Assembly: GCA_029561455.1 (NCBI GenBank) | Contig: JAKQIY010000068.1 | Span: 310,001 to 374,000, forward strand | From: a bacterium | GTDB lineage: Bacteria > Zhuqueibacterota > Zhuqueibacteria > Residuimicrobiales > Krinioviventaceae | DNA: 64,000 nt | Direction of reading: 5' to 3' | Shown: one piece after another, positions 38,699 to 57,765 of the stretch | Layout of the letters: every line of letters starts with the position of its first letter | Numbering within the stretch: position 1 is the first letter of the stretch | Program-made: the position numbers and the translations under genes | The notes under the pieces: model-generated | The model's database searches: none | What the model was told of the DNA's origin: nothing | The model's input: the letters and a program-made list of their open reading frames with translations, nothing else

Positions 38699-40711
38699 TT
38701 ATTTTTCTACAGCTAATTTTTCAAACTCCGGTAAACCGGGATAGACAGCCAATTCTGTAATTGATGTAAAGGCAGCCTGTTTACCGGACCAGTGCGGCGC
38801 TGAACCGGCATTACCGATTATTCGAATCGCTGTGGTAGTTACTAGCTTGAAAGCCAACAGGTATTCTACAAAATGAGGCTTGTTATAGGGCTCCGAACCG
38901 GTAACCAGCGCTGGAGAAATGATCAAATCATGCACCGGAATCCAACGTCCGCTATCATCCTTATACTCAACATCAAGCGATGCAAACCAGCCGCCGAATT
39001 CTTCCATACTACCGGTAAAGAAATCAACAAGCCCAATTTGCTGCGGCTCGGCCCATTCATAACCGTAAAAATCGACTTGCGATGTGTTCAAAGCGGTAAT
39101 ACTGTAAAAAGCAGAGTTATCACCATATAATTTTCCATCACGAATGACAGCAATATCACTGGCATATAATGAAGGGCCAACCGTTAACCACATCGAGTCC
39201 CGCACCTGTAAATTGGTATTCTGCACATTAGCAATAATTTGTATAGCCGCAGCAGCGAGGTTTTTACCCCGAACCACCAGCCGGAAATCATTGGTCAACA
39301 TTTGTTGGCCGTCGGTGACTTGCAGGGTAAAATCATAAATGCCGGATGATCCCGGTGTACCGGTCAAATGGCCATCGGTCAGAACAAGACCCGGCGGTAT
39401 TTGTCCGGAAACAACTTGCCAACTGAAAGGGCCTGAACCGCCGGACAGCATAAAATGGTAATTAACGGGTACGCCGGTTTCCAGGACCGGCATTGGCGCA
39501 ACAGGGAACTCCAGGGGGGCTGTAAAACGAGCTTGGGTGTTTATCAAATAATATTCTATACCGTTTTCGGTAATTTTTTTACCGCCTTGAGCCAGTATAA
39601 TTTTTTCACCCATTAATGCTGTTTTGGCTGCCATGTCGCGTAAACTGCCGTTTGGCATATCATAACGGGAGACATTAATATATTGGTCATTGAACGGATA
39701 CTGCCAGTTCAATTCCGGAAAAGGAAATAGCAGATCGTGAGGTAAACCTTTTGAGCCGCAAATTACTCCCAGTAAACCGGACATGGTTGCAGCCTGGTTA
39801 TCGGCGTCAAAACCCATTGCACAGGCATAGTCCAGGGTCTTTTGAAAATCGCCCTGACCATATAACAAGGCAAGAATACCACAAGCGCCGTTCAAAATGG
39901 CATTCCAGATCGTTCTGGTTTCAGCGGGATCATTATAATAATATTTTTGCGCCATTTCTTTACGGGCTTGCTGCCAGTTATTCGGATATTTTTCATACAG
40001 GGCTTTCATTTCATCAACAACTCCGGCAAACCGACTGCCTTGCGGCAGTGCTGCCGAGCCTGCATCAATTAATTTTTCAATATCCGTTTCAAAAAAAGCT
40101 GCGGCATACATGGCGCCATAATGAACTGTCGGTTCGATACCCCAACTATCGTTGGTAATTCGTGCGGCCCAGCCCGATTTGTCAGCTGCATAGCCGACCA
40201 TGCCGGGGGAGGCAACCGCCCATATTTCATTGACCAATTGTGGATCAATTTGGAACCAGTGCGGATTGTATTGTTTTAATCCTGTTACCGGTGGAGTATA
40301 GCCAAAATTCATGGCAGCGACAGCGGCGCGGTTGGCAAGCCAGACACGATCCCGGACATGATATTTCCAGGACTCGGTCAGTTGTTGGTAGGTAGGTTCC
40401 GGCCCATACTTTTCCATTGCCAGCAGGTACATGTATTCAATATCGGTATCATCATCTGAAAAAGCGCCGTTCAGTTCTTTTAAGGGTTTGGAATTTTCTG
40501 TATAGCCATAGGGGAAATTTTCCGGTCCTGGTTCGTTAATATAGGCGTTTTCATGCGGTAAACCATAAATATTACCAATGCATTGGCCCAGCCAGGATGC
40601 ATATACTTTATCCTGGTATTCTGCAACAGCTATCTTTTGGTAAACCGGTTGTTTGGCACATGACCAAAACATGACAAGGCATAAAAATAGAGATAATAAT
40701 AATCGCTTCAT
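38699..40711 (-). CDS. exported ADP-ribosylglycohydrolase-family protein with Ig-like and C-terminal modules (copy A)
   Basis: 670 aa from the ATG at 40711 (AGGAT upstream); a GTG-initiated frame from 40753 runs through a perfect hairpin and is rejected. The signal peptide ends in WSC (Cys18), a probable lipoprotein. The catalytic-type domain (about 25-390) has the metal motifs FSDDDTDIEYMY and CAMGFDADNQAATMSGLLG, close to the S-D-D-T and G-x-D-x-D patterns of ADP-ribosylhydrolases. A putative Ig-fold follows (about 430-510; GGSGPFSWQVVSGQIPPGL, then LTGTPGSSG), and last a discoidin-like beta domain. It probably hydrolyses an N- or O-glycosidic ADP-ribosyl or ribosyl bond outside the cytoplasm. 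It is the most divergent of four paralogues and last in the operon. Confidence 0.82.
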   Translation of the reverse strand: MKRLLLSLFLCLVMFWSCAKQPVYQKIAVAEYQDKVYASWLGQCIGNIYGLPHENAYINEPGPENFPYGYTENSKPLKELNGAFSDDDTDIEYMYLLAMEKYGPEPTYQQLTESWKYHVRDRVWLANRAAVAAMNFGYTPPVTGLKQYNPHWFQIDPQLVNEIWAVASPGMVGYAADKSGWAARITNDSWGIEPTVHYGAMYAAAFFETDIEKLIDAGSAALPQGSRFAGVVDEMKALYEKYPNNWQQARKEMAQKYYYNDPAETRTIWNAILNGACGILALLYGQGDFQKTLDYACAMGFDADNQAATMSGLLGVICGSKGLPHDLLFPFPELNWQYPFNDQYINVSRYDMPNGSLRDMAAKTALMGEKIILAQGGKKITENGIEYYLINTQARFTAPLEFPVAPMPVLETGVPVNYHFMLSGGSGPFSWQVVSGQIPPGLVLTDGHLTGTPGSSGIYDFTLQVTDGQQMLTNDFRLVVRGKNLAAAAIQIIANVQNTNLQVRDSMWLTVGPSLYASDIAVIRDGKLYGDNSAFYSITALNTSQVDFYGYEWAEPQQIGLVDFFTGSMEEFGGWFASLDVEYKDDSGRWIPVHDLIISPALVTGSEPYNKPHFVEYLLAFKLVTTTAIRIIGNAGSAPHWSGKQAAFTSITELAVYPGLPEFEKLAVEK

Positions 40712-40730
40712 TTTTAAATCCTGAATAGCA

Positions 40731-40757
40731 ACGGGTGTCTGCCGGGCAGACACCCGT
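40731..40757. other. perfect 12-bp intercistronic hairpin
   Basis: ACGGGTGTCTGC (40731-40742) and GCAGACACCCGT (40746-40757) form a perfect 12-bp stem with a 3-nt loop, in the 61-nt gap between the rbsK stop and the copy A start. Neither side carries a T-tract, so it is not a standard terminator. It more likely acts as an mRNA stability or processing element that sets different expression for the last gene. Confidence 0.7.
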
Positions 40758-40772
40758 ATGGGTTAAAATAAA

Positions 40773-41690
40773 CTAGTTATTACTGTTTAAAAATATACTT
40801 ATTTCCTTTTTAAAAGGCGCGGATGGCTGTGCACCCAGTTTGGTAACGGATAACGCCGCAGCAGCATTGGCGAATGTAACCGCTTCGGTAATATTGCGTT
40901 TTTCTGCCAGTGCTACCGCCAGTGCGCCATTAAAAACATCACCGGCAGCGGTTGTATCAACAGCAGTCACTTTGAACCCCGGAATTATACCATTAAATTC
41001 CGGCGTGGAAAGATAAGCGCCTTTAACACCCAAAGTAATAATTACAGTAGCTATTTGTTTATCATGCAGGATTTGGGCGGCCTGTCCGGCGGTTCTTTCA
41101 TCAATGACATGGATACCGGTCAACAATTCAGCTTCGGTCTCATTGGGAGTTATTATCGTAATGTACTTTAATAAATCATCAGGCAAAGGTTGAGCCGGCG
41201 CCGGATTGAGAATAACGTCAACGCCATGCTCATAACATAATCGCGCTGCGGCATGGATGGTATCGACCGGCGTTTCCAGTTGCATAATAACTATTTTTGC
41301 CCGGGTTATTTGTTTTTTAGCATTTAAAACATCACTAACGGACAAATTGGCGTTGGCGCCAGAAGCGACCGCTATACTGTTTTCGCCATCTTGAGCCACA
41401 AAAATTTCCGCCACGCCGGATGGCGCTGTTTTGTCCTTAATGACATGTTCTACATTAATGCCGTCTTTAATAAATCCCTTGATTGCTTGATCGCCAAACA
41501 TATCATCACCGACGCGGGCAACAAAAGCCACCTTCCCTCCTGCCCTTGCAGCCGCAACAGCCTGATTTGCACCCTTGCCACCCGCAGCAGTTGTGAATAC
41601 TCCTCCCAGGATCGTTTCACCCGCTTTGGGTATTCGGGGTACTTTAATAATCATATCTGTATTGGAACTGCCAATCACTACAATATTCAT
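40773..41690 (-). CDS. rbsK: ribokinase
   Basis: A 305-aa PfkB-family kinase phosphorylating D-ribose at O5. The N-terminal motif MNIVVIGSSNTDMIIKVPRIPKAGET and the substrate motif AAGGKGANQAVAAARAG match E. coli RbsK closely. The anion-hole motif near residue 250 is DTTAAGDVFNGA, the form typical of true ribokinases, where other PfkB kinases have GAGD. Upstream is the sugar permease at 41726 (35-nt gap) and then the nucleoside hydrolase: an import-and-phosphorylate pair fed by exported hydrolases. The product ribose 5-phosphate enters the pentose phosphate pathway. Confidence 0.94.
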   Translation of the reverse strand: MNIVVIGSSNTDMIIKVPRIPKAGETILGGVFTTAAGGKGANQAVAAARAGGKVAFVARVGDDMFGDQAIKGFIKDGINVEHVIKDKTAPSGVAEIFVAQDGENSIAVASGANANLSVSDVLNAKKQITRAKIVIMQLETPVDTIHAAARLCYEHGVDVILNPAPAQPLPDDLLKYITIITPNETEAELLTGIHVIDERTAGQAAQILHDKQIATVIITLGVKGAYLSTPEFNGIIPGFKVTAVDTTAAGDVFNGALAVALAEKRNITEAVTFANAAAALSVTKLGAQPSAPFKKEISIFLNSNN

Positions 41691-41725
41691 AACCGTTATT
41701 CCTTAAATTTATTTCCAAACCATAA

Positions 41726-42730
41726 TCAAACAATCCTGGCAATGATAATAATTGCCAGTCCAATAATAAATAACAGAAACATTAAACTGATCAGGGTATT
41801 GGTTCCTTTGGGAGCCGATTTAAATTCTTTCCAGATAAATACACCCCAGAAAGCCGCCACCATAGTAGCGCCCTGGCCTAAGCCGTAAGATATAGCCGGA
41901 CCGGCTTTTTCGGAAGCGATCAAACTGAATAAATTACCAATTGCCCATATAGCGCCGCCCAGAATACCAATCCAGTGTAATTTCATATTGCCTTTAATAA
42001 AATAGTCCTTATAGGTCACAGAGGCGCCGCTGAACGGTTTGTACATAACAATCGTGTTCCAAACAAAGTTCGAAATAAATAAACCGATTGCAAATACAAA
42101 ACTGGCCGTGTAAGGAGTCATTTTCCCAACTTCCGGAGTTTCAAAATTAGTAGCCATGGATTTAACAATAAAGCCATAGAAAAATCCCATAGCGATGCCG
42201 CATAGCACGGAAAGTACCAAGCCCTTGACAATATTTTTCTTACCGCCGGAGGGCAGTTTGCTGTAGGCAATCGCATCGAGAATAATAGCAATAACAACCA
42301 GGGCTACGCCAACGAATAAAATAGTCGGGTCGCCTTTGGGATTCCTGATATAATTATCAACCACGCCAATTACCAGGGCCAAACCAATCCCGACCGGGAA
42401 TGCAACCGCCATACCGGCAATATCAATAGCGGCGACGAGTAAAATGTTGGCAAAGTTGAAAATAATCCCACCGATTATTGCCGAGACAATAGCTGCAGAA
42501 TCCGCCTGACCCAAATCGGCCAGAAAACTGCGACCGCCAATGCCAATACTGCCCATTGTTAAACCGGCAAGCAACATCAACAACACGACACCGAGTGAAT
42601 AATCCCAGTAAAACAATTGAAACCGCCATTCCTTACTGGCAAGTTTTTGAGTATTACCCCAGCTACCCCAGCATAACATGGTAATAAAGCACATGAAAAC
42701 CGCAAGCGCATAAGATTGCACAATAACCAT
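41726..42730 (-). CDS. sugar/ureide-type DMT permease, probable ribose importer
   Basis: A 334-aa protein with about ten membrane helices. The N-terminus contains FITMLCWGSWGNTQKLA, typical of the glucose/ribose-uptake (GRP) and ureide-permease branch of the drug/metabolite transporter superfamily. FPVGIGLALVIGVVDN and FFYGFIVKSMA also fit. GAGGAG lies upstream of the ATG. Position between the nucleoside hydrolase and ribokinase strongly suggests ribose import; a related permease serves the Bacteroides ribose locus (from memory). Transport of intact nucleosides cannot be excluded. Confidence 0.85.
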   Translation of the reverse strand: MVIVQSYALAVFMCFITMLCWGSWGNTQKLASKEWRFQLFYWDYSLGVVLLMLLAGLTMGSIGIGGRSFLADLGQADSAAIVSAIIGGIIFNFANILLVAAIDIAGMAVAFPVGIGLALVIGVVDNYIRNPKGDPTILFVGVALVVIAIILDAIAYSKLPSGGKKNIVKGLVLSVLCGIAMGFFYGFIVKSMATNFETPEVGKMTPYTASFVFAIGLFISNFVWNTIVMYKPFSGASVTYKDYFIKGNMKLHWIGILGGAIWAIGNLFSLIASEKAGPAISYGLGQGATMVAAFWGVFIWKEFKSAPKGTNTLISLMFLLFIIGLAIIIIARIV

Positions 42731-42769
42731 TTTCTTTCTCCTCTACTTTATTTTATATAAATAGATGAA

Positions 42770-43708
42770 TTACTCAACTTTTCTGCCTAAATTTTGTTTA
42801 ACATACCGATCAAGCAAGCGTTTTAGAAATTCTTCTTTGTTTATTGAAATGCCAATTTCACAATTGAATTTACCGGATTCATCAATAACTGTGAGACCGT
42901 CGCCAATGACTTTGACGCAAGCAGGTCGGGTTGTGAACAAATCGGGCCACAATAACATACCAACCGCTACGCAATCAAATAGCGTTGGGGTTTCGTATCC
43001 CCATAAAGTATATAGACTGCAAATCGCACTAGTCAATGGCGACTGCCTCATCAACAGCTTTAAGCGGTTCTCCGCGTCCCATTTAACAAATGTGGTAATA
43101 TCTAATCCGGCATAGGTGATCCTGGCGCCGCTGGCAACAAATGCTTTTGCAGCGTCCAGATCGGCCCGCACATTCCATTCTGCTTCCGGTATCGGACCTG
43201 TGCCATAGCCCATATAAAATGACCCGAACATGGAATAAACATGTTTGGCTAGTTTTAATGCATCCGGGTCTTTTTTCAGAATATCCTGCATATTGGGAAC
43301 CGGGCCTACAGTAAACAGTATCACTTCATTCGGGTATTTTTTCAGATTTTGAATGATAAAATCGGCGGCGTTTGTATTCACCGGTTTTATTTTATCAAAC
43401 CCTTCCCCCCAAATAAACTGGGGGGAATAATTATCGACAGTTTTACGGCCGACAATCACCGGAATATGTTCCAAACCGGTCTCGTACAACATACGGCAGG
43501 CAATTTGCGCCCGTTTAGGAGTATTTCCATAATCCATAACCAGTCCCAGGACTTCCAGTTCAGGGCTAGCTAATAAGAGTGACAGTGCAAAGGCATCATC
43601 AATATCATCGCCCAGATCGCAATCAAAAATCACTTTTTGTTTTTCCGCAGATGATGCGGCCGACAACAAACACAAGATTAAAAGAACGGACAGATATATC
43701 CTTTTCAT
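42770..43708 (-). CDS. exported nucleoside hydrolase
   Basis: A 312-aa protein of the inosine-uridine preferring nucleoside hydrolase family with a Sec signal peptide (about residues 1-21, cleavage near SSA-EK). The calcium-binding N-terminal Asp cluster is FDCDLGDDIDDAFAL, as in the exported subgroup. It splits ribonucleosides into ribose and base. Location in the periplasm, immediately upstream of the permease and ribokinase genes (39-nt gap), supports extracytoplasmic ribose release. GAGGAA precedes the ATG. Base specificity cannot be judged from sequence. Confidence 0.9.
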   Translation of the reverse strand: MKRIYLSVLLILCLLSAASSAEKQKVIFDCDLGDDIDDAFALSLLLASPELEVLGLVMDYGNTPKRAQIACRMLYETGLEHIPVIVGRKTVDNYSPQFIWGEGFDKIKPVNTNAADFIIQNLKKYPNEVILFTVGPVPNMQDILKKDPDALKLAKHVYSMFGSFYMGYGTGPIPEAEWNVRADLDAAKAFVASGARITYAGLDITTFVKWDAENRLKLLMRQSPLTSAICSLYTLWGYETPTLFDCVAVGMLLWPDLFTTRPACVKVIGDGLTVIDESGKFNCEIGISINKEEFLKRLLDRYVKQNLGRKVE

Positions 43709-43752
43709 ATATTCCTCATTCGTTAAATCAACAATACTCCCTTTATGAGATG

Positions 43753-45330
43753 TTACTTTTTATCGTAAACCACAGCGGCTTGAATTTTTAACCTGGTATC
43801 TGTGGCCTTGGCATTCTTTTCACCTTTGTTGACAATGGCTATGGTATGTTCACCGGGAGCCAATTCCAGATTGTGATAGAGAAATGCATTGTCGCCGCCG
43901 TAATTGCTGACCCAATAATAATTATCGATGGTGCGCGCCAATTGCCCGTCAACCAACACATCTGCAATACCGCAATCCTGATCCCACTTACCAACTATTA
44001 ATATACCTGTACCAGTGAACGTGAATTTTGCTTCAGCACCTTTGGCATTTGTAACTTTGGAACCGGGTTGTTCCAATACTACATATTCGGCAGGCGGCGC
44101 TATGGTTTGCCATTTGCCGCTCCAGGTCCAGTTGGGATCATTAATATTAGCGAGAGATACCGGTTTAATGCCGGGGAACGAAACTTCAAGCTTTGCCGGC
44201 GCTAACGGGAGTTGAGTTTTGACATATAAAACATCATTTTCAATTTTTCCGCCATTCTCGGTAACCAATTGTTCAGCATATTTCAGGGTATTTTGCACAA
44301 CTTTATTAAAGGAATATTCTGTAAAGATAAATATCGAATCGGCAATAGCATCGATTCCGCCCTTCCATTTACCCGGGATATTGGAATAGCCGTCGCGAAT
44401 GCCTAAAACCGCAGCGGCATTGGACGGATTACAATCCGAATCCTGTCCGCAACGTATAGAGATATCCATTGTCTTTTCATAATCGCCGTTACCATATAAC
44501 AGGCCCATCACAATATATGCGCCGTTTACTTTGGCGTCGATGTTAAACGGATTGAGCGGGCCGCTCAAATCGGTATCGCCCCACTTTTCCTCAAATTCGC
44601 CCCAGGCGGACTGCCAGCTGTCAGGATACTTTTGATAAAGCGTTATAACATCCTGAATGCATTTTGCATAATCGCTTTCCGCCGGGATAGCCAGCAGGGC
44701 ATTACTGACAATTTTATTAATATCTTTTTCAAAATAGGCCTGGGTGTACAGAGCGCAGACAAACATTCCGCCATAGACGCCGTCTCCATAGTTCATAATA
44801 TGACCGACATTATCGCATATTGCATTAGAGGTTTGCGGCATTCCCGGACACATAAAACCGATATAATCTGCTTCGATCTGAAAATCAATGGCATCAGCCC
44901 ATAAACTGTACTTGGGACTACCTGATAATGGCGGCATAATGCCGTCAAAGAAATTCTTGCGCGCCTGAACATTTGCGCACCATAGCATATATCCGGCATT
45001 GGCAAAGGATTCCGCCAGTTTATCCGCCGGAGCATTAATGCCATATTTGTCCATTGTCATCATAAAACTCATTTGCACATACAGATCATCCTGTTGCAGG
45101 GAATTGGTGACGCGATTTGGTTCCCAGGTCAGGCTATCGGTATACATTTCCCCCATGGCGCGGAATTCTGTAGGAGCGCCATAAGAAACCCCAAACATTT
45201 TGCCGGCCCAACCGCCGGCTATTTTATCCTGTAATTCTGTTACACTAATGGTTTTGATATCGCTTTTTGAACATGCCAATAACGACATTAAAAGAGAAAT
45301 GAAAATTACTAGTACGATTTTTGTTTTCAT
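43753..45330 (-). CDS. ADP-ribosylglycohydrolase-family lipoprotein (copy B)
   Basis: 525 aa; AGGA precedes the ATG. Signal peptide with lipobox LLAC (Cys20). The catalytic-type domain (about 28-370) shows DKIAGGWAGKMFGVSYGAPTEF, the acidic motif QQDDLYVQMSF, GHIMNYGDGVYGGMF and CGQDSDCNPSNAAAVLG. The Asp residues of the two metal sites are kept, but the Thr positions of classical ADP-ribosylhydrolases (SDDT, DTDT) are changed. The C-terminal 150 residues form a beta-rich module that looks like a carbohydrate-binding jelly roll (GTGILIVGKWDQDCG, APGEHTIAIVNKG). The substrate is probably a ribosyl compound in the periplasm or at the cell surface. Confidence 0.85.
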   Translation of the reverse strand: MKTKIVLVIFISLLMSLLACSKSDIKTISVTELQDKIAGGWAGKMFGVSYGAPTEFRAMGEMYTDSLTWEPNRVTNSLQQDDLYVQMSFMMTMDKYGINAPADKLAESFANAGYMLWCANVQARKNFFDGIMPPLSGSPKYSLWADAIDFQIEADYIGFMCPGMPQTSNAICDNVGHIMNYGDGVYGGMFVCALYTQAYFEKDINKIVSNALLAIPAESDYAKCIQDVITLYQKYPDSWQSAWGEFEEKWGDTDLSGPLNPFNIDAKVNGAYIVMGLLYGNGDYEKTMDISIRCGQDSDCNPSNAAAVLGIRDGYSNIPGKWKGGIDAIADSIFIFTEYSFNKVVQNTLKYAEQLVTENGGKIENDVLYVKTQLPLAPAKLEVSFPGIKPVSLANINDPNWTWSGKWQTIAPPAEYVVLEQPGSKVTNAKGAEAKFTFTGTGILIVGKWDQDCGIADVLVDGQLARTIDNYYWVSNYGGDNAFLYHNLELAPGEHTIAIVNKGEKNAKATDTRLKIQAAVVYDKK

Positions 45331-45419
45331 CTTTTTTTCCTTTTTCGGCAGATATGATTAAAGAGTTTACTCAAACTATCTTTATCTGTCCGCTAACTTG
45401 ATTATAATTTTTAAATTTA

Positions 45420-45453: not shown

Positions 45454-45492
45454 CGGTTATATCATACTAATCAGATAAAGGGTCATACCGGA

Positions 45493-47016
45493 TTAGTATT
45501 TGGGAGTTAAGGGTTTATCGGTATAAGTAATAATGTCGCCTATTTCAATTTGCGCTTTATCCGAAGGATTTAGTATTTTAATTTTTACGGTATGCTTTGC
45601 ATTAGACAACTGATACTGCCAGAAAAGCGGATCTTTTCTGATGATATATTTACTCGGCATTTTCGAGGTTTCCACCAGCTTGCCATCGATATACATCTCG
45701 ACATCAAAAATGTAATCGTCATCGCCGGTTTTACGGACAGAGCCGGTAGTGGCAAAACCGATTCCTTCGAATTCAAAGGTGGCCTCATCGTTAAATTTTT
45801 TGCCTAGTTGAGCGCGTTTAGCCGGGTAATGTCCTTCAAAGCCAACCTCTAATTTTACCGCTTTAGGTTCCTGAAAAGTTATGGTTACATCTTTATCACC
45901 AACCTGGCCGCCGTTCTTTTTAATCACTTCCAGGGCTTGATTGAATGACATCGTATAGGTATCATTTAACGACATGGTGGTGTATTTAAAATCCATATCT
46001 TCAACTTTATCAATGCCTTGTTTCCAGAAAGCCGGTATATTGCTGTAACCCAGCATTGTACCAAGAATACCGCCGGCACTGGCCGGATTGCAATCGGAAT
46101 CATCGCCGCCACGGGTGCTGATGGATAGTGTTTTTGTATAATCGCCGTCGCCATACAGTAAACCTAACAAAATCCAGGCGGAATTAATATTAGCGTCAAT
46201 ATTAAAGGTCGTAAACACACCATCCGGGCAACCAATATCCTGACCCCATTTTTGCTGGGTTTTGAACCAGGTCATCTTCCAGTCATCCGGGTATTGTTTA
46301 TGCCATTTGATCACATCGCTCATACACTGGTAGTATTTACTCTCTTTGGGGATTACTTTCAGGGCTTCATTTATAATATAGTTCAAATCATTGGAAGTAA
46401 AAGCCAGGGCATACATCGCGGCGACATAGACGCCACCATACCAACCGTCGCCATAATTCATAATGTGGCCAATTTTATCGCAAATTTCAGCTGAGGTATT
46501 GATCATTCCCGGACTCATCAACCCGGCAAAATCCGCTTCGATCTGAAAATCAATGTCTTCAGCATGGGGATTATAGTGCCAATGCCCTGATTTTGGCGGC
46601 ATGATTCCGCGCAGAATATTATAACGCGCGGCAATATTAGCGTGCCACAACAGGTATTCGGCATTGGCAAATGCTTTGGCAAATTCATCAGCCGGGGCGT
46701 CGATGCCCTTTTTATCAAAAACATCGACAAATGTCAGGTCCATATATACATCATCATACAAACCGGGAACATTTTCATAAAAATATTTCATTACATTTTC
46801 ATTCCACTCCAGTGGTTGATAATCCTGGATAAAAGTGCTGCGGTACTTGAACTCGGTTGGGCCGCCAAATGAGCAGCCGATAACCTGTCCGGCCCAGCCG
46901 CCTTTAATCTTGTCCTGCAAAACCTCTTTGGAAAGAGTAATAGTTTTTGCATTTACGGTTACAACAACCAGTGCTGTAAATAACAAGATAATTAATAATT
47001 TGTTTGAAACCTTCAT
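45493..47016 (-). CDS. exported ADP-ribosylglycohydrolase-family protein (copy C)
   Basis: 507 aa from the ATG at 47016. A GTG at 47028 is part of the GGAGG ribosome binding site for this ATG and is rejected. The signal peptide is cleaved near VNA-KT. Domain features match copy B: DKIKGGWAGQVIGCSFGGPTEF, GLYDDVYMDLTF, DFQIEADFAGLMSPGM, GHIMNYGDGWYGGVY and GGDDSDCNPASAGGILG, followed by a beta-rich C-terminal module of about 130 residues. B and C are adjacent and probably a tandem duplication that has diverged. No lipobox is seen, so it may be free in the periplasm or secreted while B is membrane-anchored. Confidence 0.85.
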   Translation of the reverse strand: MKVSNKLLIILLFTALVVVTVNAKTITLSKEVLQDKIKGGWAGQVIGCSFGGPTEFKYRSTFIQDYQPLEWNENVMKYFYENVPGLYDDVYMDLTFVDVFDKKGIDAPADEFAKAFANAEYLLWHANIAARYNILRGIMPPKSGHWHYNPHAEDIDFQIEADFAGLMSPGMINTSAEICDKIGHIMNYGDGWYGGVYVAAMYALAFTSNDLNYIINEALKVIPKESKYYQCMSDVIKWHKQYPDDWKMTWFKTQQKWGQDIGCPDGVFTTFNIDANINSAWILLGLLYGDGDYTKTLSISTRGGDDSDCNPASAGGILGTMLGYSNIPAFWKQGIDKVEDMDFKYTTMSLNDTYTMSFNQALEVIKKNGGQVGDKDVTITFQEPKAVKLEVGFEGHYPAKRAQLGKKFNDEATFEFEGIGFATTGSVRKTGDDDYIFDVEMYIDGKLVETSKMPSKYIIRKDPLFWQYQLSNAKHTVKIKILNPSDKAQIEIGDIITYTDKPLTPKY

Positions 47017-47058
47017 ATTAACCTCCACTTTTATTAGTTACTTGATTTATTAATATAA

Positions 47059-48081: not shown

Positions 48082-48121
48082 TATTGTCCTCTGCTGAAAT
48101 AGAATATCATTAATCATCAAA

Positions 48122-49348: not shown

Positions 49349-49420
49349 CAACCTGCTTTTACTTTTAATCAATCCACACAAAGGTAATTACACTTTCAGT
49401 TAATAGGTGCGTTAGATAAT

Positions 49421-50101: not shown

Positions 50102-50113
50102 AGTATTACCACT

Positions 50114-52321
50114 CTATTTTTTCGAGTCAAAAACTAACCAACCGGTATCGACAATTATTTCATCTTTAAGCACCGAATCCTGCATCAATTTAACTATGAC
50201 TTTATAGGGGAACTTTAGGTCCAGTTGAGCAAGATCAACCATACCACTAGCGCCGGTAATTTTCATCTTTTCTTCTTCCATCATTGTTAAATTGTTTACA
50301 GTATTGATTTGGATAAATGAATTATCAAGCGGTTTTACGGCTTTGATATTCAGAGTATTACCCTGTTTATCAACTTGCAGATTTTTCGGCATGGCTATTA
50401 TGCAAGACATTACATCCGTTGGTTCTTCCGGAAATACCAGCACTGTCCGACCATCCTGTTTGACGGTTGGAATTGTTTGATGATTCCAAACATCGACATA
50501 ATGCCAGTCATCGGGGTGAGAAACCAGCATAAACGGACCGATCAGCCGGTTATCCAGGCTACGGTCAACCTCTTCCCGTCCCAACTGGTATACCGGGTAT
50601 ACGCACTTGTCCGTAACCGGGAAAGCATTGACAAAGACATCGGCGCGTAAATCTGTGACCAGCGGCATCGGATTATCGGTTAAATAGGCATCACGGTTTT
50701 CATGGATAATACGGCTGTAGCGATGGATCAGTACCCGTTCATTCCAGGAATAGCGGTTAATTTCACCAAAAATATCTTCCCATACAATAAACCCGGTGCC
50801 GTTAAAAAGCGCATTATAAATCAATTCATCCCGGTCACGCGCGCCGCGATTGATATTATGTACATTATGTTCCGGTATAATAAACCGGAACAGATCGACA
50901 TTAGGCATCTTATTAGTAGCATTACCCTGCTGGTTCCAACTGCCTGTAACCAATTCGGCAGCAGCCAAATCCGGCCGGCCTTCACTGACAAAAACATTAT
51001 CAGGATTCACGGCGTCCAACGCAGTACGAAAAGCGATATCCGATTCACCCATGGTATCTAGAAAAACGCCATCCGAACCAATGGCTTTAGCAATTTCGGC
51101 TTCGCGTTCAAAATGTCCGGTGCGGCCGTTCATAATATCCCAGGGCTTGTAGGGGATGTAAACATGCACGTCGCGCGTATGGGCTTTGTCCACCATTTCC
51201 TTTACGCCGGGTAATCCGCCGGGCAGATCAGAGTACATGTCAAACTGGTTGCGGTTATCGATCCCCATACGTGGATAATCATGCCAAAGCAGCATATAAT
51301 CATAGCCGCCGAAATTCAATTCTCCTTCATCCAGAAACTCATCGATGCGAAAACGGTTATCTTTAGGATCATAAATATCATGTCCATACAGGAAGGTAAA
51401 ATGCGATACAAAGCGCTGCCGGTATTTTTCCTGGATGGGACGTTTATAGTATGTGAAATCGAAATTAGCGCGAATATATTTTTTAAAAGCCCAAAAGGCA
51501 GCATGCCAGTCCCCCTGGTGCGGACTGATGAGACAGTTCAGTAACTCGGTTTTTTGGCCGGGTTCCTGGGTTAATTTAAATACCCGGGAAATTAAATCAT
51601 TTTTATCCGTAAAATTCAGGAAAAATTTTGAAGCAAGAAAATGAAAATAGACGCCGTTATTGCTTTTTTCATTATAAATATCAATCGGCATTTTAGGATC
51701 TTCGCTCGATGTAAAATAAAATATAAAATCATCGGCATTATCAATGCAATAAAAGCTATTCTGCGTCGGTAACAGGTAATGCATATCGGCCGTTTTGCCT
51801 AACTGGAATCTTTGCAAAACCGGAAAATAAATATTATTGGTCACGGTTTCGGGATCACGATAGGTTCGTCCGCCGGTTGAAGTGTTGACCAGTTGTACCT
51901 GCCAGGATAATTTGGCGCTGTTATCCAGGGCAAATGTTTGTGTTATCACAATCGGATTTTCCACATAACCGGATTGCTGGCTAATGGTCACCGCCTTCCT
52001 GCCCTCTTGCTGTTCCTCTGTAAAGGTAAATAATTGATAACCGACATCGCTCAAACTCCAGGGCATGCGTACAGATATAAACAGTAACGGCGGATTGCCT
52101 TGCATCAGATCGATTCCGGTGGTTTTATCCAAAAGCCCGGCAAGATGAATCCCTTTCTCGCACAATAATTTATATTGCACACTGTCATTTTCCAGAATAA
52201 TGTATTTCACCATATCCTTGTTCGGCAGGTACTGCAATTGAATTTTGGCGTTGCCGGCAACCGGGAATAAATATGTACAGATTAATATTATTATGAATAT
52301 AGGGTATATTTTATTTTTCAT
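50114..52321 (-). CDS. exported glycoside hydrolase-like protein (TIM-barrel type)
   Basis: 735 aa with a Sec signal (cleavage near GNA-KI) and CAGGAG before the ATG. The N-terminal third is a beta-sandwich of the GH31/GH36-clan accessory type (CEKGIHLAGLLDKTTGIDL). The middle (about 300-560) reads as a TIM barrel with YDYMLLWHDYPRMG, VHVYIPYKPWDIMNGR and SDGVFLDTMGESD, whose Asp is a candidate nucleophile, then EGRPDLAAAELVTG. A C-terminal beta domain follows. It resembles DUF6259-type and other uncharacterised glycosidases. The exported location and place after the importer genes point to depolymerising or deglycosylating an external substrate. Confidence 0.75.
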   Translation of the reverse strand: MKNKIYPIFIIILICTYLFPVAGNAKIQLQYLPNKDMVKYIILENDSVQYKLLCEKGIHLAGLLDKTTGIDLMQGNPPLLFISVRMPWSLSDVGYQLFTFTEEQQEGRKAVTISQQSGYVENPIVITQTFALDNSAKLSWQVQLVNTSTGGRTYRDPETVTNNIYFPVLQRFQLGKTADMHYLLPTQNSFYCIDNADDFIFYFTSSEDPKMPIDIYNEKSNNGVYFHFLASKFFLNFTDKNDLISRVFKLTQEPGQKTELLNCLISPHQGDWHAAFWAFKKYIRANFDFTYYKRPIQEKYRQRFVSHFTFLYGHDIYDPKDNRFRIDEFLDEGELNFGGYDYMLLWHDYPRMGIDNRNQFDMYSDLPGGLPGVKEMVDKAHTRDVHVYIPYKPWDIMNGRTGHFEREAEIAKAIGSDGVFLDTMGESDIAFRTALDAVNPDNVFVSEGRPDLAAAELVTGSWNQQGNATNKMPNVDLFRFIIPEHNVHNINRGARDRDELIYNALFNGTGFIVWEDIFGEINRYSWNERVLIHRYSRIIHENRDAYLTDNPMPLVTDLRADVFVNAFPVTDKCVYPVYQLGREEVDRSLDNRLIGPFMLVSHPDDWHYVDVWNHQTIPTVKQDGRTVLVFPEEPTDVMSCIIAMPKNLQVDKQGNTLNIKAVKPLDNSFIQINTVNNLTMMEEEKMKITGASGMVDLAQLDLKFPYKVIVKLMQDSVLKDEIIVDTGWLVFDSKK

Positions 52322-52360
52322 GTTATTCTCCTGTAAAGAATAGCGTCAAAAGCTATTAAT

Positions 52361-53173
52361 TTATTTAGCATCCTTGACACAACGGAAACCGATTGAGGAA
52401 CTGCGGTTCAATGCCGGGGTCATATACCAGTACTTGGTCCGCTGGTAATTCGCTATAGGGCCTCCCTGCATATACCAGAGACTGCCTTTCGCAAAGAAAT
52501 AACTGCCGCCGCGTATCCATGAAAAATAATGATAACCGTCCGAGGCAAAGGAATCCGTCCATTCCCACACATTCCCGGTCATATCCAGGCAGCCGTAAGG
52601 ACTGGCGCCTTGCGGATAACTGCCAACCGCTTGAGTATCATCGGAATCTATATTTGCCTTATTGGGATCGTAAACATTCCCCCATGGCCAGTCACGGCCA
52701 TCGGTGCCTTGCGCCGCTTTTTGCCATTCCTGTTCCGAAGGGAGGCGCTTACCTGCCCATTTTGCAAAAGCACAGGCGTCTTCAAGTGAAATCCACACCA
52801 CCGGATGATTTGCTTTACCGGCCGGATACATTCCGTTAGACCAATGCTTTAAAAAGTTTTCCGGCCATTGTGGTTTATAATGGGTGGCATCAAGGAATGC
52901 TTTAAATTGCTCATTGGTTACTTCAGTTTTATCGATATAAAATGCCGGTACATAAACTTTTTCATTAAAGCGATACCTGAAACCGTGATCGTCATAAACC
53001 AGGGTATCGAGGGTTAAGCCTTCACGCCAGCGATACTCAACATGGAATTGAAACTCCCCGGCCGGAACCAGTTGCATGCCTTTGGGCGCCGCGGAATAGA
53101 CAATATCATTATTAATATATACTGAAAATATGAATATTGCAATTAACACATAAAAGATCTTTTTGCGGTTCAT
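52361..53173 (-). CDS. exported formylglycine-generating-enzyme (SUMF1) family protein
   Basis: 270 aa; TAGGAGG precedes the ATG. The signal peptide is cleaved near YSA-AP. The FGE-sulfatase fold is clear: LVPAGEFQF, IDKTEVTNEQFKAFLDAT, HPVVWISLEDACAFAKWAGKRLPSEQEWQKAA, GRDWPWGN, GCLDMTGNVWEWTDSF, IRGGSYFFA and SIGFRCVKD. True FGE activates sulfatases by oxidising a Cys and needs two Cys in its own C-terminal part. Here the only C-terminal Cys is in FRCVKD, and no sulfatase gene is in the window. It is therefore more likely one of the many non-FGE members with an unknown binding or modifying role. Confidence 0.85.
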   Translation of the reverse strand: MNRKKIFYVLIAIFIFSVYINNDIVYSAAPKGMQLVPAGEFQFHVEYRWREGLTLDTLVYDDHGFRYRFNEKVYVPAFYIDKTEVTNEQFKAFLDATHYKPQWPENFLKHWSNGMYPAGKANHPVVWISLEDACAFAKWAGKRLPSEQEWQKAAQGTDGRDWPWGNVYDPNKANIDSDDTQAVGSYPQGASPYGCLDMTGNVWEWTDSFASDGYHYFSWIRGGSYFFAKGSLWYMQGGPIANYQRTKYWYMTPALNRSSSIGFRCVKDAK

Positions 53174-53200
53174 GTGTACCTCCTAATAGCGCAAAAATGA

Positions 53201-54211
53201 TTACAGGGAATTACTGATAGCAATAATAATCACAGCCACAATCAGCAGCGACATACCGTAATATAATAACATTCTGGCTTGGCGTGCTGCCCCTTTCCAC
53301 TCGCCCTTCCAGAGTCCCCACAGGTTACCGACAATAATTGATAACGATATAAACAATGGCCAGCCGACAATTACCCCCCAACGGCCCAGTTGTACCGCGC
53401 TTATACCATATAAATAAAAACTGCCAATCCACATAATGGCCATAAGAAAACCCCACAAAATATTTTTACCGGTATGGGGGTTAAAATAGTCCCGGTAATT
53501 TTTATGAATTAGCATTAAATATAAACAATATGCAAAGTTGACTAAAAATCCGATTGTAAAAAATAACGACCAGACAATATTACCGGCAATGGTTTTGGAT
53601 ACCCCGGAATCAACAGCCGCCTGTACCAGATTGGAGCCAAAAGCCATACCAACATTAGGCAGACACGATAATATTCCGGCAAATATAGCTATTATCAGGC
53701 CAACTGTAATGGTGCTGCCTTTGGTTGTTGTCGCAGCAGCTTTTGGTTGTTTCTTTACCCCGGCCTGCGAGCAAACGATGATACCGAGAATTGTAACTAT
53801 CACACCAATGAGTAACACTATGCCTTTGGTCTGCAACATTGCATCAGGGAAAAAGATGAGCAATGGGATTAATGCTCCGAGACTGGCAATTATACCCATA
53901 ATGATTGGATACCCCAGCGCCATACCCAGTTTATCCATTCCCAAACCAAATAAAACTGCTCCAATTCCCCACCCTGCTCCAAACAGGATGATGAATAATA
54001 AATCCCTGGAGGCAGCCATTCCCAGAATCGAAAAAATATTGGGAAACAGGATCAATGCTATGATCCAGTTAAAAACAAGCATACCAAATAAGGAAAATGT
54101 AACCCACGAATGTTCCCACTGCCATTTTTTGGTCATGGTCATGGGTAATATAAATGTACCCTGAAAAAATCCGGCGATTAAAACGAGTAAAAATCCGTAA
54201 ACTATTATCAT
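53201..54211 (-). CDS. RhaT-family sugar-proton symporter
   Basis: A 336-aa protein with about ten membrane helices. It matches the L-rhamnose permease family: TMTKKWQWEHSWVTFSLFGM, then LFGAGWGIGAVLFGLGMDKLGMALGYPIIMGI, and the C-terminal GRWGVIVGWPLFISLSIIVGN. Nothing else for rhamnose metabolism is present, so the real substrate is probably another sugar of this locus. Pairing with the adjacent PfkB kinase (82-nt gap) mirrors the permease-ribokinase pair at 40773-42730; deoxyribose or a modified pentose are candidates by inference. Confidence 0.88.
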   Translation of the reverse strand: MIIVYGFLLVLIAGFFQGTFILPMTMTKKWQWEHSWVTFSLFGMLVFNWIIALILFPNIFSILGMAASRDLLFIILFGAGWGIGAVLFGLGMDKLGMALGYPIIMGIIASLGALIPLLIFFPDAMLQTKGIVLLIGVIVTILGIIVCSQAGVKKQPKAAATTTKGSTITVGLIIAIFAGILSCLPNVGMAFGSNLVQAAVDSGVSKTIAGNIVWSLFFTIGFLVNFAYCLYLMLIHKNYRDYFNPHTGKNILWGFLMAIMWIGSFYLYGISAVQLGRWGVIVGWPLFISLSIIVGNLWGLWKGEWKGAARQARMLLYYGMSLLIVAVIIIAISNSL

Positions 54212-54293
54212 GGCATTTTTCCTGGATTAATTGTTAATTTAAATTACTTGTCAATTGAACTGATCAATTCTGTTTTAATAAATACACACTTTT

Positions 54294-55223
54294 TTAAATT
54301 TTTGTCAAAATTTCCTTAATCCTGGCATCAACCTGATCGCGATAGGGATACGATTCAATCGTTTCCCGGTATTGGGTGGAAAGCGATGCGGCAGTTATGC
54401 CTATGGCGATCGCTTCCGGCAGGGGTTTATTTTCGCTTAATCCTACGGCAAGTCCGGCGTTAAATGCATCACCGGCGCCCACGCTATCGACGACCTTAAC
54501 TTTAAGCGCCGGGATATGCTTTACACCCTGTTTTGAAGCCCATAAAACGCCTTTAGCGCCCAGGGTGAGAATAATATTTTCCGGTCCCAAATCTAATAAC
54601 GCAGCGGCCAAATCCTCATCAGGAATAGGATCATTGGGCTCCAGACCGATACATACACGGCCTTCTGTTTCATTTGGCACCAAAGCAAATACAGAACTGA
54701 GATCGTAACCCCGTAAATCTACAGCCGGGGCAGGATTGAGAATGAATTTAATACCCTGGGCTTTTGCTGCCTGGCCGGCAGCCAGGGCGGTATTGACCGG
54801 AATTTCCAAAGGAGATAAAATTACATCGGCTGATTCGATGATGTGTTTATGTTTATCAATATCCTGAGGTAAAAAATCACCGTTAGCGGCAATATCGATA
54901 ACAATTGAATTGGTGCCTTTGGAGCTAAAGATAATAAAACCGACAGCCGTAGGAAATTTTTCCGAGTACAAAACACCGCTGCAACTTACCTTTTCTTTTT
55001 GCAGTAATTCTAGAAATTCCTCGCCAAAATTATCCCTGCCGATTTTTCCCATAAAGGTCGATTCAGCGCCAAGACGAGCCGCACAAGCAGCCATGTTTGA
55101 TCCTTTGCCGCCATGGGTAGTATGATAATTATAACCCATTACGGTTTCTCCTTCAAGAGGAATTCTTTTTGTATCCATGACCAGCGCCACGATATAACTT
55201 CCTACAACCGTTACTTTACCCAT
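54294..55223 (-). CDS. PfkB-family sugar kinase (ribokinase- or deoxyribokinase-like)
   Basis: 309 aa. The N-terminus MGKVTVVGSYIVALVMDTKRIPLEGET and THGGKGSNMAACAARLGA are ribokinase-like, but the first motif lacks the usual Asn-x-Asp (SYIVAL instead of SSNTDM). The anion hole near residue 250 is DSVGAGDAFNAGLAVGL, the general PfkB form. These changes suggest a substrate other than ribose. Next to a RhaT-type permease and with DeoC in the same locus, a deoxyribokinase role is attractive but unproven. AT-rich 74- and 82-nt gaps flank it and could carry an internal promoter. Confidence 0.85.
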   Translation of the reverse strand: MGKVTVVGSYIVALVMDTKRIPLEGETVMGYNYHTTHGGKGSNMAACAARLGAESTFMGKIGRDNFGEEFLELLQKEKVSCSGVLYSEKFPTAVGFIIFSSKGTNSIVIDIAANGDFLPQDIDKHKHIIESADVILSPLEIPVNTALAAGQAAKAQGIKFILNPAPAVDLRGYDLSSVFALVPNETEGRVCIGLEPNDPIPDEDLAAALLDLGPENIILTLGAKGVLWASKQGVKHIPALKVKVVDSVGAGDAFNAGLAVGLSENKPLPEAIAIGITAASLSTQYRETIESYPYRDQVDARIKEILTKI

Positions 55224-55297
55224 AAATAAACCTTAAATTTTGTTAAATATCACTTTAAACTATTATTATGAAATTGTTCTTATAAAAATATTTACAC

Positions 55298-56425
55298 TCA
55301 TTTCAGTCCATACATAGCCAGCACATTATCAAGTGGAATATCGGCCTGTAAATGATGCGAACCGGCCATAATGTAACCACCGTTTTTACCCAATACATTA
55401 GCGATATACTGCACATTTTCTTTTACCTGTTGTGGCGAAGCATGTGGTAAAAATTGTTGAACATCGATTCCACCGTGAAAAGCCAGCTGGCCGCCGAATT
55501 CCTTTGCCAGCCGTTCCGGATTCATATTCCTTGCCGAAGGTTGAACAGGATTGAGAATTTTTAAACCCATATCTATCAATGTCGGTATCAAAGTATAAAT
55601 TGAACCACAGCAATGCATCATCACCGGTTTATTATATTTGGCAGCTATATCAATCAATTTTTTATGAAATGGTTGAATATATTCCTGGTACATAGCCGGG
55701 CTTATCAATAAATTTTCCTGGGAAGCTACATCATCATAAAAATAGACAATATCAATTAAATCTTCCGCTATATCCAAAACCCGGCGTAGATTTTCATAAT
55801 GCACTTCGGCAATACGTTCCATAACATAAACAACCATATCAGGATTCATAGCCAGGTCGAGTTGAAATTTTTCAAAATTATACAGTGACCAGGCCGTTTC
55901 AAAAAATGAACCCACCCGCCAGCGAATGTTATATAGAGCTGTATCATTCAGATCATTTATGTAATCGCGTAAATGGCTGAAATCCCACCAGTCCGGCTCC
56001 GGCCAGTGATATTTTTTTAAATCATCAATACTCGAGGCTGTTTCAAGGGGAAATGAAGCAAACTCGTCCAGGAATCCAAACGGGGTTTGCACTCTTTTGC
56101 GATGCGCCCCCCAGATATCGCGTGAAGAACCGTCGGGCTCAATTTTACGCCACATACCGCTTAATGAAGCCCTTTCCTGTGAACTTTTTAAATTAACTTG
56201 TGATTCATCCACCTGCGGATTATGGCAGAAATTATCATAGTAGACGATTCGGCAATCAACATCCAGTTTTTTCAATATTTCTTTTCGATCATCAGTCCCG
56301 AAATATTCTGCCAGCTTTTGCCAAATTTCCGGTACTGCGGCAAAATCTCTGGGGGTACGATCCGGTTTTTGATAATGGATCGCATTGTTTACTCTATCCT
56401 TATGGGATCGGTCTTTTTCGGGCAT
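55298..56425 (-). CDS. uroporphyrinogen decarboxylase family protein (methyltransferase-like)
   Basis: 375 aa from the ATG at 56425 (AGGGAA upstream); a TTG 10 codons earlier is less likely. The C-terminal half has the URO-D/MtaA-like features: YFYDDVASQENLLISPAMYQEY, PVMMHCCGSIYTLIPTLIDMG with the His-x-Cys metal ligands of corrinoid methyltransferases, PVQPSARNMNPERLAKEFGG and the closing AFHGGID. It lacks the arginine cluster of true HemE. Such proteins demethylate corrinoid or thiol carriers; no corrinoid-protein gene is nearby. Its role in a ribose locus is unknown; removal of a methyl group from a modified sugar is one speculative option. The product is cytoplasmic. Confidence 0.82.
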   Translation of the reverse strand: MPEKDRSHKDRVNNAIHYQKPDRTPRDFAAVPEIWQKLAEYFGTDDRKEILKKLDVDCRIVYYDNFCHNPQVDESQVNLKSSQERASLSGMWRKIEPDGSSRDIWGAHRKRVQTPFGFLDEFASFPLETASSIDDLKKYHWPEPDWWDFSHLRDYINDLNDTALYNIRWRVGSFFETAWSLYNFEKFQLDLAMNPDMVVYVMERIAEVHYENLRRVLDIAEDLIDIVYFYDDVASQENLLISPAMYQEYIQPFHKKLIDIAAKYNKPVMMHCCGSIYTLIPTLIDMGLKILNPVQPSARNMNPERLAKEFGGQLAFHGGIDVQQFLPHASPQQVKENVQYIANVLGKNGGYIMAGSHHLQADIPLDNVLAMYGLK

Positions 56426-56466
56426 AGTTAATTCCCTGAATTTTGAATTCAACAAGGGTTACTTTA

Positions 56467-57765
56467 TTACTTTTTCGTTTCTTCCCAAACCGTTTGCTCA
56501 AGCGGCAATGAGGTTGGGGTTTTATAGGGTATATTAATAATATCACCTTTAATATATCCACCATTTTGTAAAATATTCCATTTCCCAACTTCGACTGTCT
56601 TGTCGATTAAGTCATTCCATTGTATCTTTTGGGGGAAAATTTCTTTAATTGCAATATTATCGATGGGTAAATCTTTAAGTATACTCCATTTTACAGGGAT
56701 ATTTTGTAAACCCATAACCGTTCCCAGAATACCGACGACACTGGAAGGATTGCAATCACTATCGCGACCGCAACGCATGGAGATATTCATCGACTTCCAA
56801 AAATCACCTTCGCCATACAACAAGCCCATATAAATATAGGCGCCATTGATCCGCACATCAACCCCGCTGACCAGTTTGCCATCTTTAATACCCCATTTCG
56901 GTTCCAGCTTTTTCCAGGCATCCTGCCAGTTCGGATATCGCTGGTGCAGATCAAGCACATCTTGCACCATCTTGGCATACCCGCTTTCCGCCGGAATTGC
57001 TTTTAAACTATATTCCGCTAATACTCTGGGATTCTTTTCAAAAAATGCCTCACAATACATAGCCGCAACCGCCATACCAGCATATACGCCATCGCCATAA
57101 TTCATAATATGCCCGACTTTGTCACCCCAGGCATTACTGATACGCGGCATTCCGGGGGATATTAGACCAAATAAATCCGCTTCGATCTGAAAATCGATGG
57201 CGTCACCCCAGGGAGTATAACGGGGATTTCCGGACAGAGGTGGCCAAATACCTCTTAAAAAATTGTCATACGCGCCTTTGTTGGCACACCAAATTCTTTC
57301 GGGATCAATATAGGAAATCCACTCCTCAGCAATTTCACGGGCGGTAACATCCAAACCATATTTATGAATTGCATGTAAAAACATAAATTCAACATACAAG
57401 TCATCCTGGTCGGACATCTCTTCCGGTTTATATATTTCCCAGTTCTGTTTGTCAATTACAAATTGTTTGGCAAATTTCCGTTTTTCCTGCCAGTCTCCGG
57501 GGTGTTCATTTATTTTTTGTTCAATTTCAGGTTTAATGCGATACCAATCTTCAAGGTCAAACGGTACAATTTCACCCTGCCAACGACCCTCGGTCCATTG
57601 AGCATACAACACACCTATTGCCTGACCTAACCAACCACCAGCTACTTTATCTGTATACTCTTGAAGGGATAGCTGTCTGCAAGGCTGTTGTTCGCTGTAA
57701 ACAGGATATATGGTTATACATAAAAATAATAAGATCAAATAAATAATTGAATTTTTCTTAATCAT
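56467..57765 (-). CDS. exported ADP-ribosylglycohydrolase-family protein (copy D)
   Basis: 432 aa; GGAAAGGA precedes the ATG. Sec signal peptide cleaved near VYS-EQ. Features: DKVAGGWLGQAIGVLYAQWTEG, an inserted segment of about 50 residues not seen in B/C, SDQDDLYVEFMFLHAIHKYG, DFQIEADLFGLISPGMP, GHIMNYGDGVYAGM and CGRDSDCNPSSVVGILG. It is shorter than B and C because it has no large C-terminal beta module. It is the first gene after the terminator at 57850 and probably the first of the operon. It belongs to the same subfamily as B and C, all three with Cys-Asn-Pro after the second Asp pair. Confidence 0.85.
   Translation of the reverse strand: MIKKNSIIYLILLFLCITIYPVYSEQQPCRQLSLQEYTDKVAGGWLGQAIGVLYAQWTEGRWQGEIVPFDLEDWYRIKPEIEQKINEHPGDWQEKRKFAKQFVIDKQNWEIYKPEEMSDQDDLYVEFMFLHAIHKYGLDVTAREIAEEWISYIDPERIWCANKGAYDNFLRGIWPPLSGNPRYTPWGDAIDFQIEADLFGLISPGMPRISNAWGDKVGHIMNYGDGVYAGMAVAAMYCEAFFEKNPRVLAEYSLKAIPAESGYAKMVQDVLDLHQRYPNWQDAWKKLEPKWGIKDGKLVSGVDVRINGAYIYMGLLYGEGDFWKSMNISMRCGRDSDCNPSSVVGILGTVMGLQNIPVKWSILKDLPIDNIAIKEIFPQKIQWNDLIDKTVEVGKWNILQNGGYIKGDIINIPYKTPTSLPLEQTVWEETKK

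Follow-up and report, generated by a model that had tools for sequence, protein, structure and literature searches.

Why would a bacterium export four proteins of the ADP-ribosylglycohydrolase (ARH) family from a single gene cluster, and what would they cleave? The question is raised by a stretch of 64,000 nucleotides, hereafter the window (contig JAKQIY010000068.1 of assembly GCA_029561455.1, positions 310,001–374,000), from a member of the Krinioviventaceae, in the little-studied phylum KSB1 (Zhuqueibacterota). According to the list of open reading frames (ORFs) of the window, 15 consecutive minus-strand genes fill positions 38699–57765 without interruption. We consider it probable that this locus is a ribose-utilization system of the Rus type that has grown into a locus for glycan foraging and would free ribose, along with a second sugar, from a glycan containing furanosides. 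This reading draws on the gene families, the export signals recognised by a heuristic, the conservation of the block, the subfamily-specific association with a kinase and a permease, and altered metal-site motifs.

Gene content of the locus

The genes are transcribed in the order ARH_C, URO-D, PfkB2, RhaT-type permease, FGE-fold protein, GH735, DeoC, GH419, esterase, ARH_A, ARH_B, nucleoside hydrolase (NH), GlcU-type permease, RbsK and ARH_D. The gaps between them measure 1–82 bases, with the exception of 162 bases ahead of ARH_B. Three genes located upstream, encoding a PorV-like protein, the protein P670 and a TonB-dependent receptor (TBDR), travel with this set, and the unit thus comprises 18 genes at 38699–64164.

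Families were assigned by Pfam and NCBIfam scans of the window proteins, and export was judged only by an N-terminal hydropathy heuristic (positively charged residues, a hydrophobic stretch and in some cases a Cys resembling that of a lipobox). Signal-like N-termini were found on all hydrolases of the locus and on none of RbsK, DeoC and URO-D; the hydrophobic N-terminus of PfkB2 is the usual first strand of the PfkB fold.

A preliminary description of this DNA, made from the letters alone, had recognised the uninterrupted minus-strand run but counted fourteen genes, of which it named 13, omitting URO-D and the FGE-fold protein, and its interval (38699–57765) was too short for the whole unit. 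Most of its identifications agree with our scans: four exported ARH-family proteins, an exported nucleoside hydrolase and an exported esterase, two sugar permeases (both of DMT type), two PfkB kinases (one passing the ribokinase cut-offs), DeoC, signal peptides confined to the hydrolases, and an intrinsic terminator at the 3' end. Two further proteins, GH735 and GH419, were described as exported and glycosidase-like; their N-termini are indeed signal-like, but the glycosidase label is unproven.

The four exported ARH-fold hydrolases

The four proteins matched PF03747 at 98–140 bits (cut-off 26.2), over profile positions 1 to 285 or 286 of 287, and they are the sole PF03747 genes of the 5.85-Mb genome.

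45493–47028, minus strand: ARH_A, exported, motifs YDDV ... DSDCNP, member of the Rus clade (PF03747, 140.1 bits)
43753–45330, minus strand: ARH_B, exported, lipoprotein-like, motifs QDDL ... DSDCNP (PF03747, 98.2 bits)
56467–57765, minus strand: ARH_C, exported, motifs QDDLY ... DSDCNP, lone lineage (PF03747, 100.7 bits)
38699–40753, minus strand: ARH_D, exported, with an Ig-like domain, motifs DDDT ... DADN (PF03747, 102.1 bits; PF05345)

The true start of ARH_D is likely an internal ATG (MKRLLLSLF). A sequence search of the PDB with this protein gave nothing of use.

ARH1 and ARH3 bind their metals through the motifs E ... [S/T]DDT ... D[S/T]D[S/T]; ARHs mutated in a single metal ligand are inactive (PMC6309922). 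In our alignment the exported ARHs keep the five acidic residues of the metal site (E59, D92, D93, D310 and D312 in ARH_A numbering), and none of the four carries the ARH1/ARH3-type motifs. The residue ahead of DD, Ser or Thr in the published motif, is Tyr, Gln, Gln and Asp in ARH_A, ARH_B, ARH_C and ARH_D, and the final Ser/Thr of the second motif is replaced by Cys, Cys, Cys and Asn, respectively (DxDT becoming DSDCNP or DADN). In the same alignment, DDT and DxDT are kept in seven of the eight canonical ARHs of the same phylum, the eighth being a partial or divergent ORF. Since the diagnostic Thr/Ser ligands are replaced, ADP-ribosyl hydrolysis would not be the favoured activity of the exported proteins.

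In the phylogenetic tree the exported clade splits from the canonical ARHs at 100/100 support. ARH_A is nested among Bacteroidota sequences of the Rus clade. ARH_B belongs to its own supported clade with orthologues in G020 and in three sister genomes, namely G006 from the same family, G043 from the same class and G078 from the same phylum, and ARH_D to another, with orthologues in G006 and in Bacteroidia bacterium MS495-74, while ARH_C stands alone on a long branch. The tree has long branches, and we make no claim on the branching order among the four lineages. To judge from these sequences, the four proteins are old separate lineages and not recent copies. A simple tandem duplication of one ARH was considered and rejected, as the tree places the four in four old lineages.

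The exported clade has the signature [YQ]DD[LVIM]Y ... D[SA]DCNP and is widespread in Bacteroidota, being found also in KSB1, Neomarinimicrobiota and Planctomycetota. We tentatively suggest that it may represent an undescribed glycoside-hydrolase family, namely metal-dependent pentofuranosidases cleaving ribofuranosyl residues of glycans, with the paralogues of the locus specialised by linkage; we hold this with less confidence than the reading of the locus as a whole. Alpha-linked ribosides are the substrates of ARH1 and ARH3 (PMC6309922), and because these enzymes already cleave such bonds, the predicted alpha-ribofuranosidase role would need little new chemistry. By this analogy the switch from ADP-ribosyl groups to glycan ribosides would be chemically modest. 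We found no proven substrate for the ARH-fold hydrolases that ribose-utilization systems carry.

It should be mentioned that other genomes carry tandem ARHs of a more canonical type. Three to five such genes without RbsK or permease were observed at L181, L183, L184 and L185 (genomes G044, G050, G034 and G080), and these arrays from other genomes of the class are a different multi-ARH cluster.

Conservation and neighbourhoods of the exported ARHs

A near-collinear island was revealed in G006, G043 and G078 (TBDR-P670-PorV ... PfkB2-RhaT-FGE-GH735 ... ARH(s) ... GlcU permease), with RbsK directly after the GlcU permease in G006 and G043. Identity to the sister islands is 59–76% for most genes. 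For PfkB2 it amounts to 74, 73 and 72%, and because the identity is alike to near and far genomes, these values suggest that the block was moved by transfer.

The ARH alignment was then scanned across 84,980 species; at least 563 relatives were confirmed, and the best 80 were kept. These 80 come mainly from Bacteroidota, plus KSB1, Neomarinimicrobiota and Planctomycetota, and are 53–64% identical to ARH_A. Among these 80 loci, 46 have a homologue of RbsK and 41 one of the GlcU-type permease no more than 10 kb from the exported ARH. Two checks proposed in the preliminary description, for a PF03747 match and for a conserved kinase/permease neighbourhood, both came out in its favour. SusC/SusD, the nucleoside-hydrolase family and a gene of about 505 amino acids of unknown family also recur among them. 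The number of ARHs per locus in this set is one or two in Bacteroidota and four or five in large KSB1 loci. RbsK or permease genes were found in none of the 11 canonical-ARH regions of the phylum (5.8–19.9 kb, some on short contigs of 5.8–9 kb), and RbsK, permease or both are present in three further exported-ARH regions (L186–L188). Since the block is conserved and the neighbourhood is specific to the subfamily, the arrangement of the locus is not due to chance.

The loci of relatives add genes for GH127 (in G006 and G078), chondroitinase-B/beta-helix (lyase-like) folds, alginate-lyase-like proteins, carboxylesterase, GH116 and DUF4185/GH183. On contig C201 of G078, DUF4185 (GH183) and GH116 genes (L072:3712–4971 and L071:7669–10419) are located near homologues of RbsK, the GlcU permease, ARH, GH735 and the FGE-fold protein. 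In Bacteroidia bacterium MS495-74 (L090:1937–11500), ARH_D and ARH_A homologues surround a SusC-type receptor gene and RbsK. In G001, a genome of the same genus, contig C85 (31860–32269; L170, L171) has RbsK, GlcU, NH and ARH_A in one short cassette and, next to it, what is left of a GH419 gene, interrupted by in-frame stops, which may point to the decay of a larger locus.

Kinases, permeases, nucleoside hydrolase and DeoC

40773–41690, minus strand: RbsK, ribokinase (NF008353, 393.7 bits, cut-off 341; TIGR02152, 375.7 bits, cut-off 299.65)
41726–42730, minus strand: DMT/GlcU-type permease, RusT-like (PF07168, PF06800)
42770–43708, minus strand: NH, exported non-standard nucleoside hydrolase (PF01156, 143 bits)
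49421–50101, minus strand: DeoC-type aldolase (TIGR00126, 167 bits, cut-off 117.3)
53201–54211, minus strand: RhaT-type sugar permease paired with PfkB2 (PF06379, 109 bits), the order being kept in G006, G043 and G078
54294–55223, minus strand: PfkB2, second sugar kinase (PF00294; TIGR02152, 272.5 bits, under the cut-off of 299.65)

In E. coli RbsK, residues N14 and D16 touch O2 and O3 of ribose. A residue check revealed Ile and Ala at these positions in PfkB2 and its three orthologues; since the pair is missing from all of them, a second sugar besides ribose is the likely substrate of this kinase. A search by name gave no deoxyribokinase model or structure.

DeoC retains both active-site lysines (IKNSSG at 153 and KIKASG at 183). 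It looks like a local addition, and the deoxyribose branch put forward in the preliminary description is only weakly indicated: none of the three sister loci has DeoC, and the genome holds two other copies. The sole hint for this branch is the loss of the N14/D16 pair in PfkB2.

The nucleoside hydrolase homologue keeps the Asp ligands, but Phe precedes its last Ca-binding Asp, where near relatives have Phe or Tyr. Nucleoside hydrolases of groups I and II have a catalytic His or Trp at this position (PMC8910321).

Other enzymes of the locus

47059–48120, minus strand: exported esterase, CE1-like alpha/beta hydrolase (PF00756, 91.9 bits)
48122–49381, minus strand: GH419, exported, unclassified, no Pfam, NCBIfam or useful PDB match
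50114–52321, minus strand: GH735, exported putative glycosidase of 735 amino acids, unclassified, no Pfam, NCBIfam or PDB match
52361–53173, minus strand: exported FGE/SUMF1-fold protein (PF03781, 150.7 bits)
55298–56455, minus strand: cytosolic member of the URO-D superfamily, MtaA/CmuA-like methyltransferase homologue (PF01208, 70.6 bits)

The invariant acidic residues of GH735 are D355, D361, D395, D417, D422 and E447. Its homologues are often fused to an FGE fold, and a search of the PDB with its profile matched only FGE-fold chains, through the fused tail. SusC/SusD-size genes and ARH_A also precede a GH735-FGE fusion in a genome of the Chitinophagaceae. The GH735 of G006 lies in two overlapping frames (L038:3874–6091), owing to a frameshift or an assembly error. 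GH419 adjoins ARH_A in two Spirosoma species too, and its homologues are present in G003, L093 and L097. AlphaFold2 models built from three-sequence alignments reached a mean pLDDT of 50 for GH419 and 40 for GH735, too poor for use, and were set aside; a Foldseek search with GH735, which gave no match at E<=0.001, was disregarded.

The active-site motif of SUMF1 is CxxxxC. The FGE-fold protein of the locus has Cys at 134, 195 and 265 only, without this catalytic pair, and by its sequence is probably a binding or structural, non-catalytic protein. Generation of formylglycine for sulfatases was rejected as a role, as there is neither CxxxxC in the protein nor a sulfatase in the locus. The esterase is 73–76% identical in G006, G043 and G078. 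The URO-D-like protein, with orthologues in G006 and G043, scored 54 bits with TIGR01463, under the cut-off, and has an HxC zinc-type motif (HCC) at residue 281; a role in haem biosynthesis was rejected on account of this motif and its closer similarity to MtaA/CmuA.

Outer-membrane uptake genes and transcription units

57901–58941, minus strand: PorV/PorQ-family outer-membrane protein (NF033709, 167.9 bits, cut-off 90)
58978–60990, minus strand: P670, exported, C-terminus like a type IX secretion system tail, no confident Pfam family
61075–64000, minus strand: TBDR, 1029 amino acids in full, start beyond the window at about 64164 (PF00593, PF07715)
57852–57886, minus strand: strong intrinsic-terminator-like hairpin between transporter and enzyme genes (15 pairs, 9 GC, T-tail)
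38587–38636, minus strand: terminator-like hairpin at the 3' end of the set (minimum free energy -21.1 kcal/mol, z -3.75, ending in a U-run)

Orthologues of the TBDR (67–75% identity) occupy the same place in G006, G043 and G078, where P670 is 69–75% identical. The C-terminus of P670 recurs beside other TBDR/PorV genes of the same genome, which has at least eight same-strand groups of a TBDR, a P670-like tail and a PorV-family gene (contigs C2, C13, C26, C27 and C78, and three times on C29). A profile search for SusD (PF07980) found none in the whole genome, so that the TBDR is present and a SusC/SusD-type pair is not. TBDR, P670 and PorV are possibly a SusD-less uptake trio of phylum KSB1.

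The transporter and enzyme genes may be two transcription units split by the hairpin at 57852–57886; alternatively, this hairpin may serve partial read-through control. Upstream of the TBDR, outside the window, lie a LacI-family gene and then a divergent symporter-like gene (assigned by eye). An Rfam scan found no RNA families in the window. Elsewhere in the window, a single frame at 33794–35392 joins a DsrC-like stretch near the N-terminus (residues 44–113) to an aminotransferase of the cysteine-desulfurase type, and one protein at 36192–38219 combines a receiver domain, an NMT1-like binding domain and a CheW domain.

Proposed function and alternatives

The working that we propose for the locus is as follows. 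The TBDR with its P670 and PorV-like partners would capture a pentofuranoside-bearing glycan, the esterase would strip acyl groups, and the polymer would be opened by GH419 and by GH735 together with the FGE-fold protein. The four exported ARH-fold enzymes and the NH homologue would then act as furanosidases, yielding free ribose and the second sugar. Ribose would be imported via the RusT/GlcU-like permease and converted to ribose-5-phosphate by RbsK, while the second sugar would enter via the RhaT-type permease and be phosphorylated by PfkB2. DeoC could split a 2-deoxypentose phosphate. The glycan substrate, the furanosidase chemistry, the identity of the second sugar and the order of steps are what we infer here. 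In favour of glycan foraging are GH735, GH419 and the esterase within the locus, the GH127, lyase-like, carboxylesterase, GH116 and GH183 genes in the loci of relatives, and the SusC/SusD genes that several exported-ARH loci with RbsK/permease also hold. Several points weigh against it: neither GH735 nor GH419 is classified, and their structure models are poor; the loss of the Thr/Ser metal-motif residues leaves catalysis by the ARHs itself not assured; the strong hairpin at 57852–57886 lies between the transporter set and ARH_C; and for the Bacteroides system nucleosides have been discussed as the origin of the ribose, while the locus contains an NH homologue.

The last point leads to scavenging of nucleosides or nucleic acids, in which NH and the ARHs would free ribose (and, via PfkB2 and DeoC, deoxyribose) from extracellular nucleosides. 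The PF01156 protein, the intact lysines of DeoC and the missing N14/D16 pair of PfkB2, which could suit a 2-deoxy-sugar kinase, are consistent with it, and the Rus system of Bacteroides thetaiotaomicron is tied to nucleosides (PMC12596196). We nevertheless regard it as unlikely: Phe stands in place of the catalytic His/Trp of NH, as Phe or Tyr does in near relatives, the Pfam/NCBIfam scans of the locus revealed neither nucleases or nucleotidases nor phosphorylases or base transporters, the three sister loci lack DeoC, and the GH-like, esterase and FGE-type genes would be left unexplained.

Still less credence is given to harvest of ribose from extracellular ADP-ribosylated proteins, poly-ADP-ribose or NAD. 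PF03747 membership and the Glu and the four Asp retained at the binuclear site speak for it, but the four proteins depart from the published [S/T]DDT and D[S/T]D[S/T] motifs (PMC6309922), their clade is separated from canonical ARHs at 100/100 support, and the NCBIfam model Tri1 scored 20.8 against a cut-off of 490. Freed ADP-ribose would moreover need a pyrophosphatase and a phosphatase; by the same scans the locus has no pyrophosphatase, and no isomerase, Nudix, nucleotidase or phosphatase families occur among the 18 genes. Thus, among the substrates named in the preliminary description, ADP-ribosylated material and NAD are less supported, and ribosyl glycans fit the surroundings best. Equally improbable in our view is utilization of D-arabinofuranose or L-arabinofuranose (arabinan-type), with the ARH-fold enzymes as arabinofuranosidases. 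The GH183 and GH116 genes near RbsK and a permease in G078, together with GH127 in G006 and G078, recall the D-arabinan polysaccharide utilization locus (PUL) 42 of Dysgonomonas gadei, which has GH172, DUF4185/GH183 (an endo-D-arabinofuranase) and fucose isomerase (PMC10115798). However, GH183, GH116 and GH127 are all missing from the window, arabinose/fucose isomerase and ribulokinase from the locus, and RbsK is a ribokinase by cut-off.

Comparison with known systems

The Rus PUL for ribose of B. thetaiotaomicron is BT2803–2809 (PMC12596196, PMC10434189), and variants of it occur across Bacteroidota. The link to it suggested earlier is supported, as the same ribokinase-ARH-permease cassette surrounds the closest relatives of the exported ARH in Bacteroidota, Neomarinimicrobiota and Planctomycetota. 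Both systems unite a ribokinase, a GlcU/RusT-type permease, an exported ARH, an exported NH homologue and a TonB receptor in one block. In our locus the ribokinase scores above its cut-offs, the permease and exported ARHs lie beside it (ARH_A-ARH_B-NH-GlcU-RbsK), and the exported nucleoside hydrolase has a non-standard active site. Unlike Rus, the KSB1 genome is without SusD, and P670 and PorV-like genes adjoin the receptor. The candidate for a RusR-type regulator is the LacI-family gene just upstream, where 15 Bacteroidota loci have the gene of about 505 amino acids. Further additions in our locus are the four ARHs, each of its own lineage, the second pair of kinase and permease, GH735, GH419, FGE, esterase, URO-D and DeoC. 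Because SusD is absent from the genome, we do not file the locus as a canonical Rus PUL, although it would function in the same manner.

With canonical ARHs (ARH1, ARH3, DraG, Tri1) the locus proteins share the PF03747 fold and the Glu and four Asp metal ligands; they differ in being exported, in the replaced Thr/Ser of the metal motifs, in their separate clade and in their gene neighbours. D. gadei PUL42 resembles the locus in targeting furanosides, as proposed here, and in the DUF4185 gene beside a related cassette in G078, while the window has no GH172, GH183 or isomerase route.

The name ADP-ribosylglycohydrolase on exported proteins is probably misleading. Four divergent ARH paralogues in the company of enzymes of glycan type, of another kinase and permease and of a transporter set lacking SusD make it testable whether they are riboside-cleaving glycosidases or erasers of ADP-ribosylation, and the Rus-like system is thereby extended beyond Bacteroidota.

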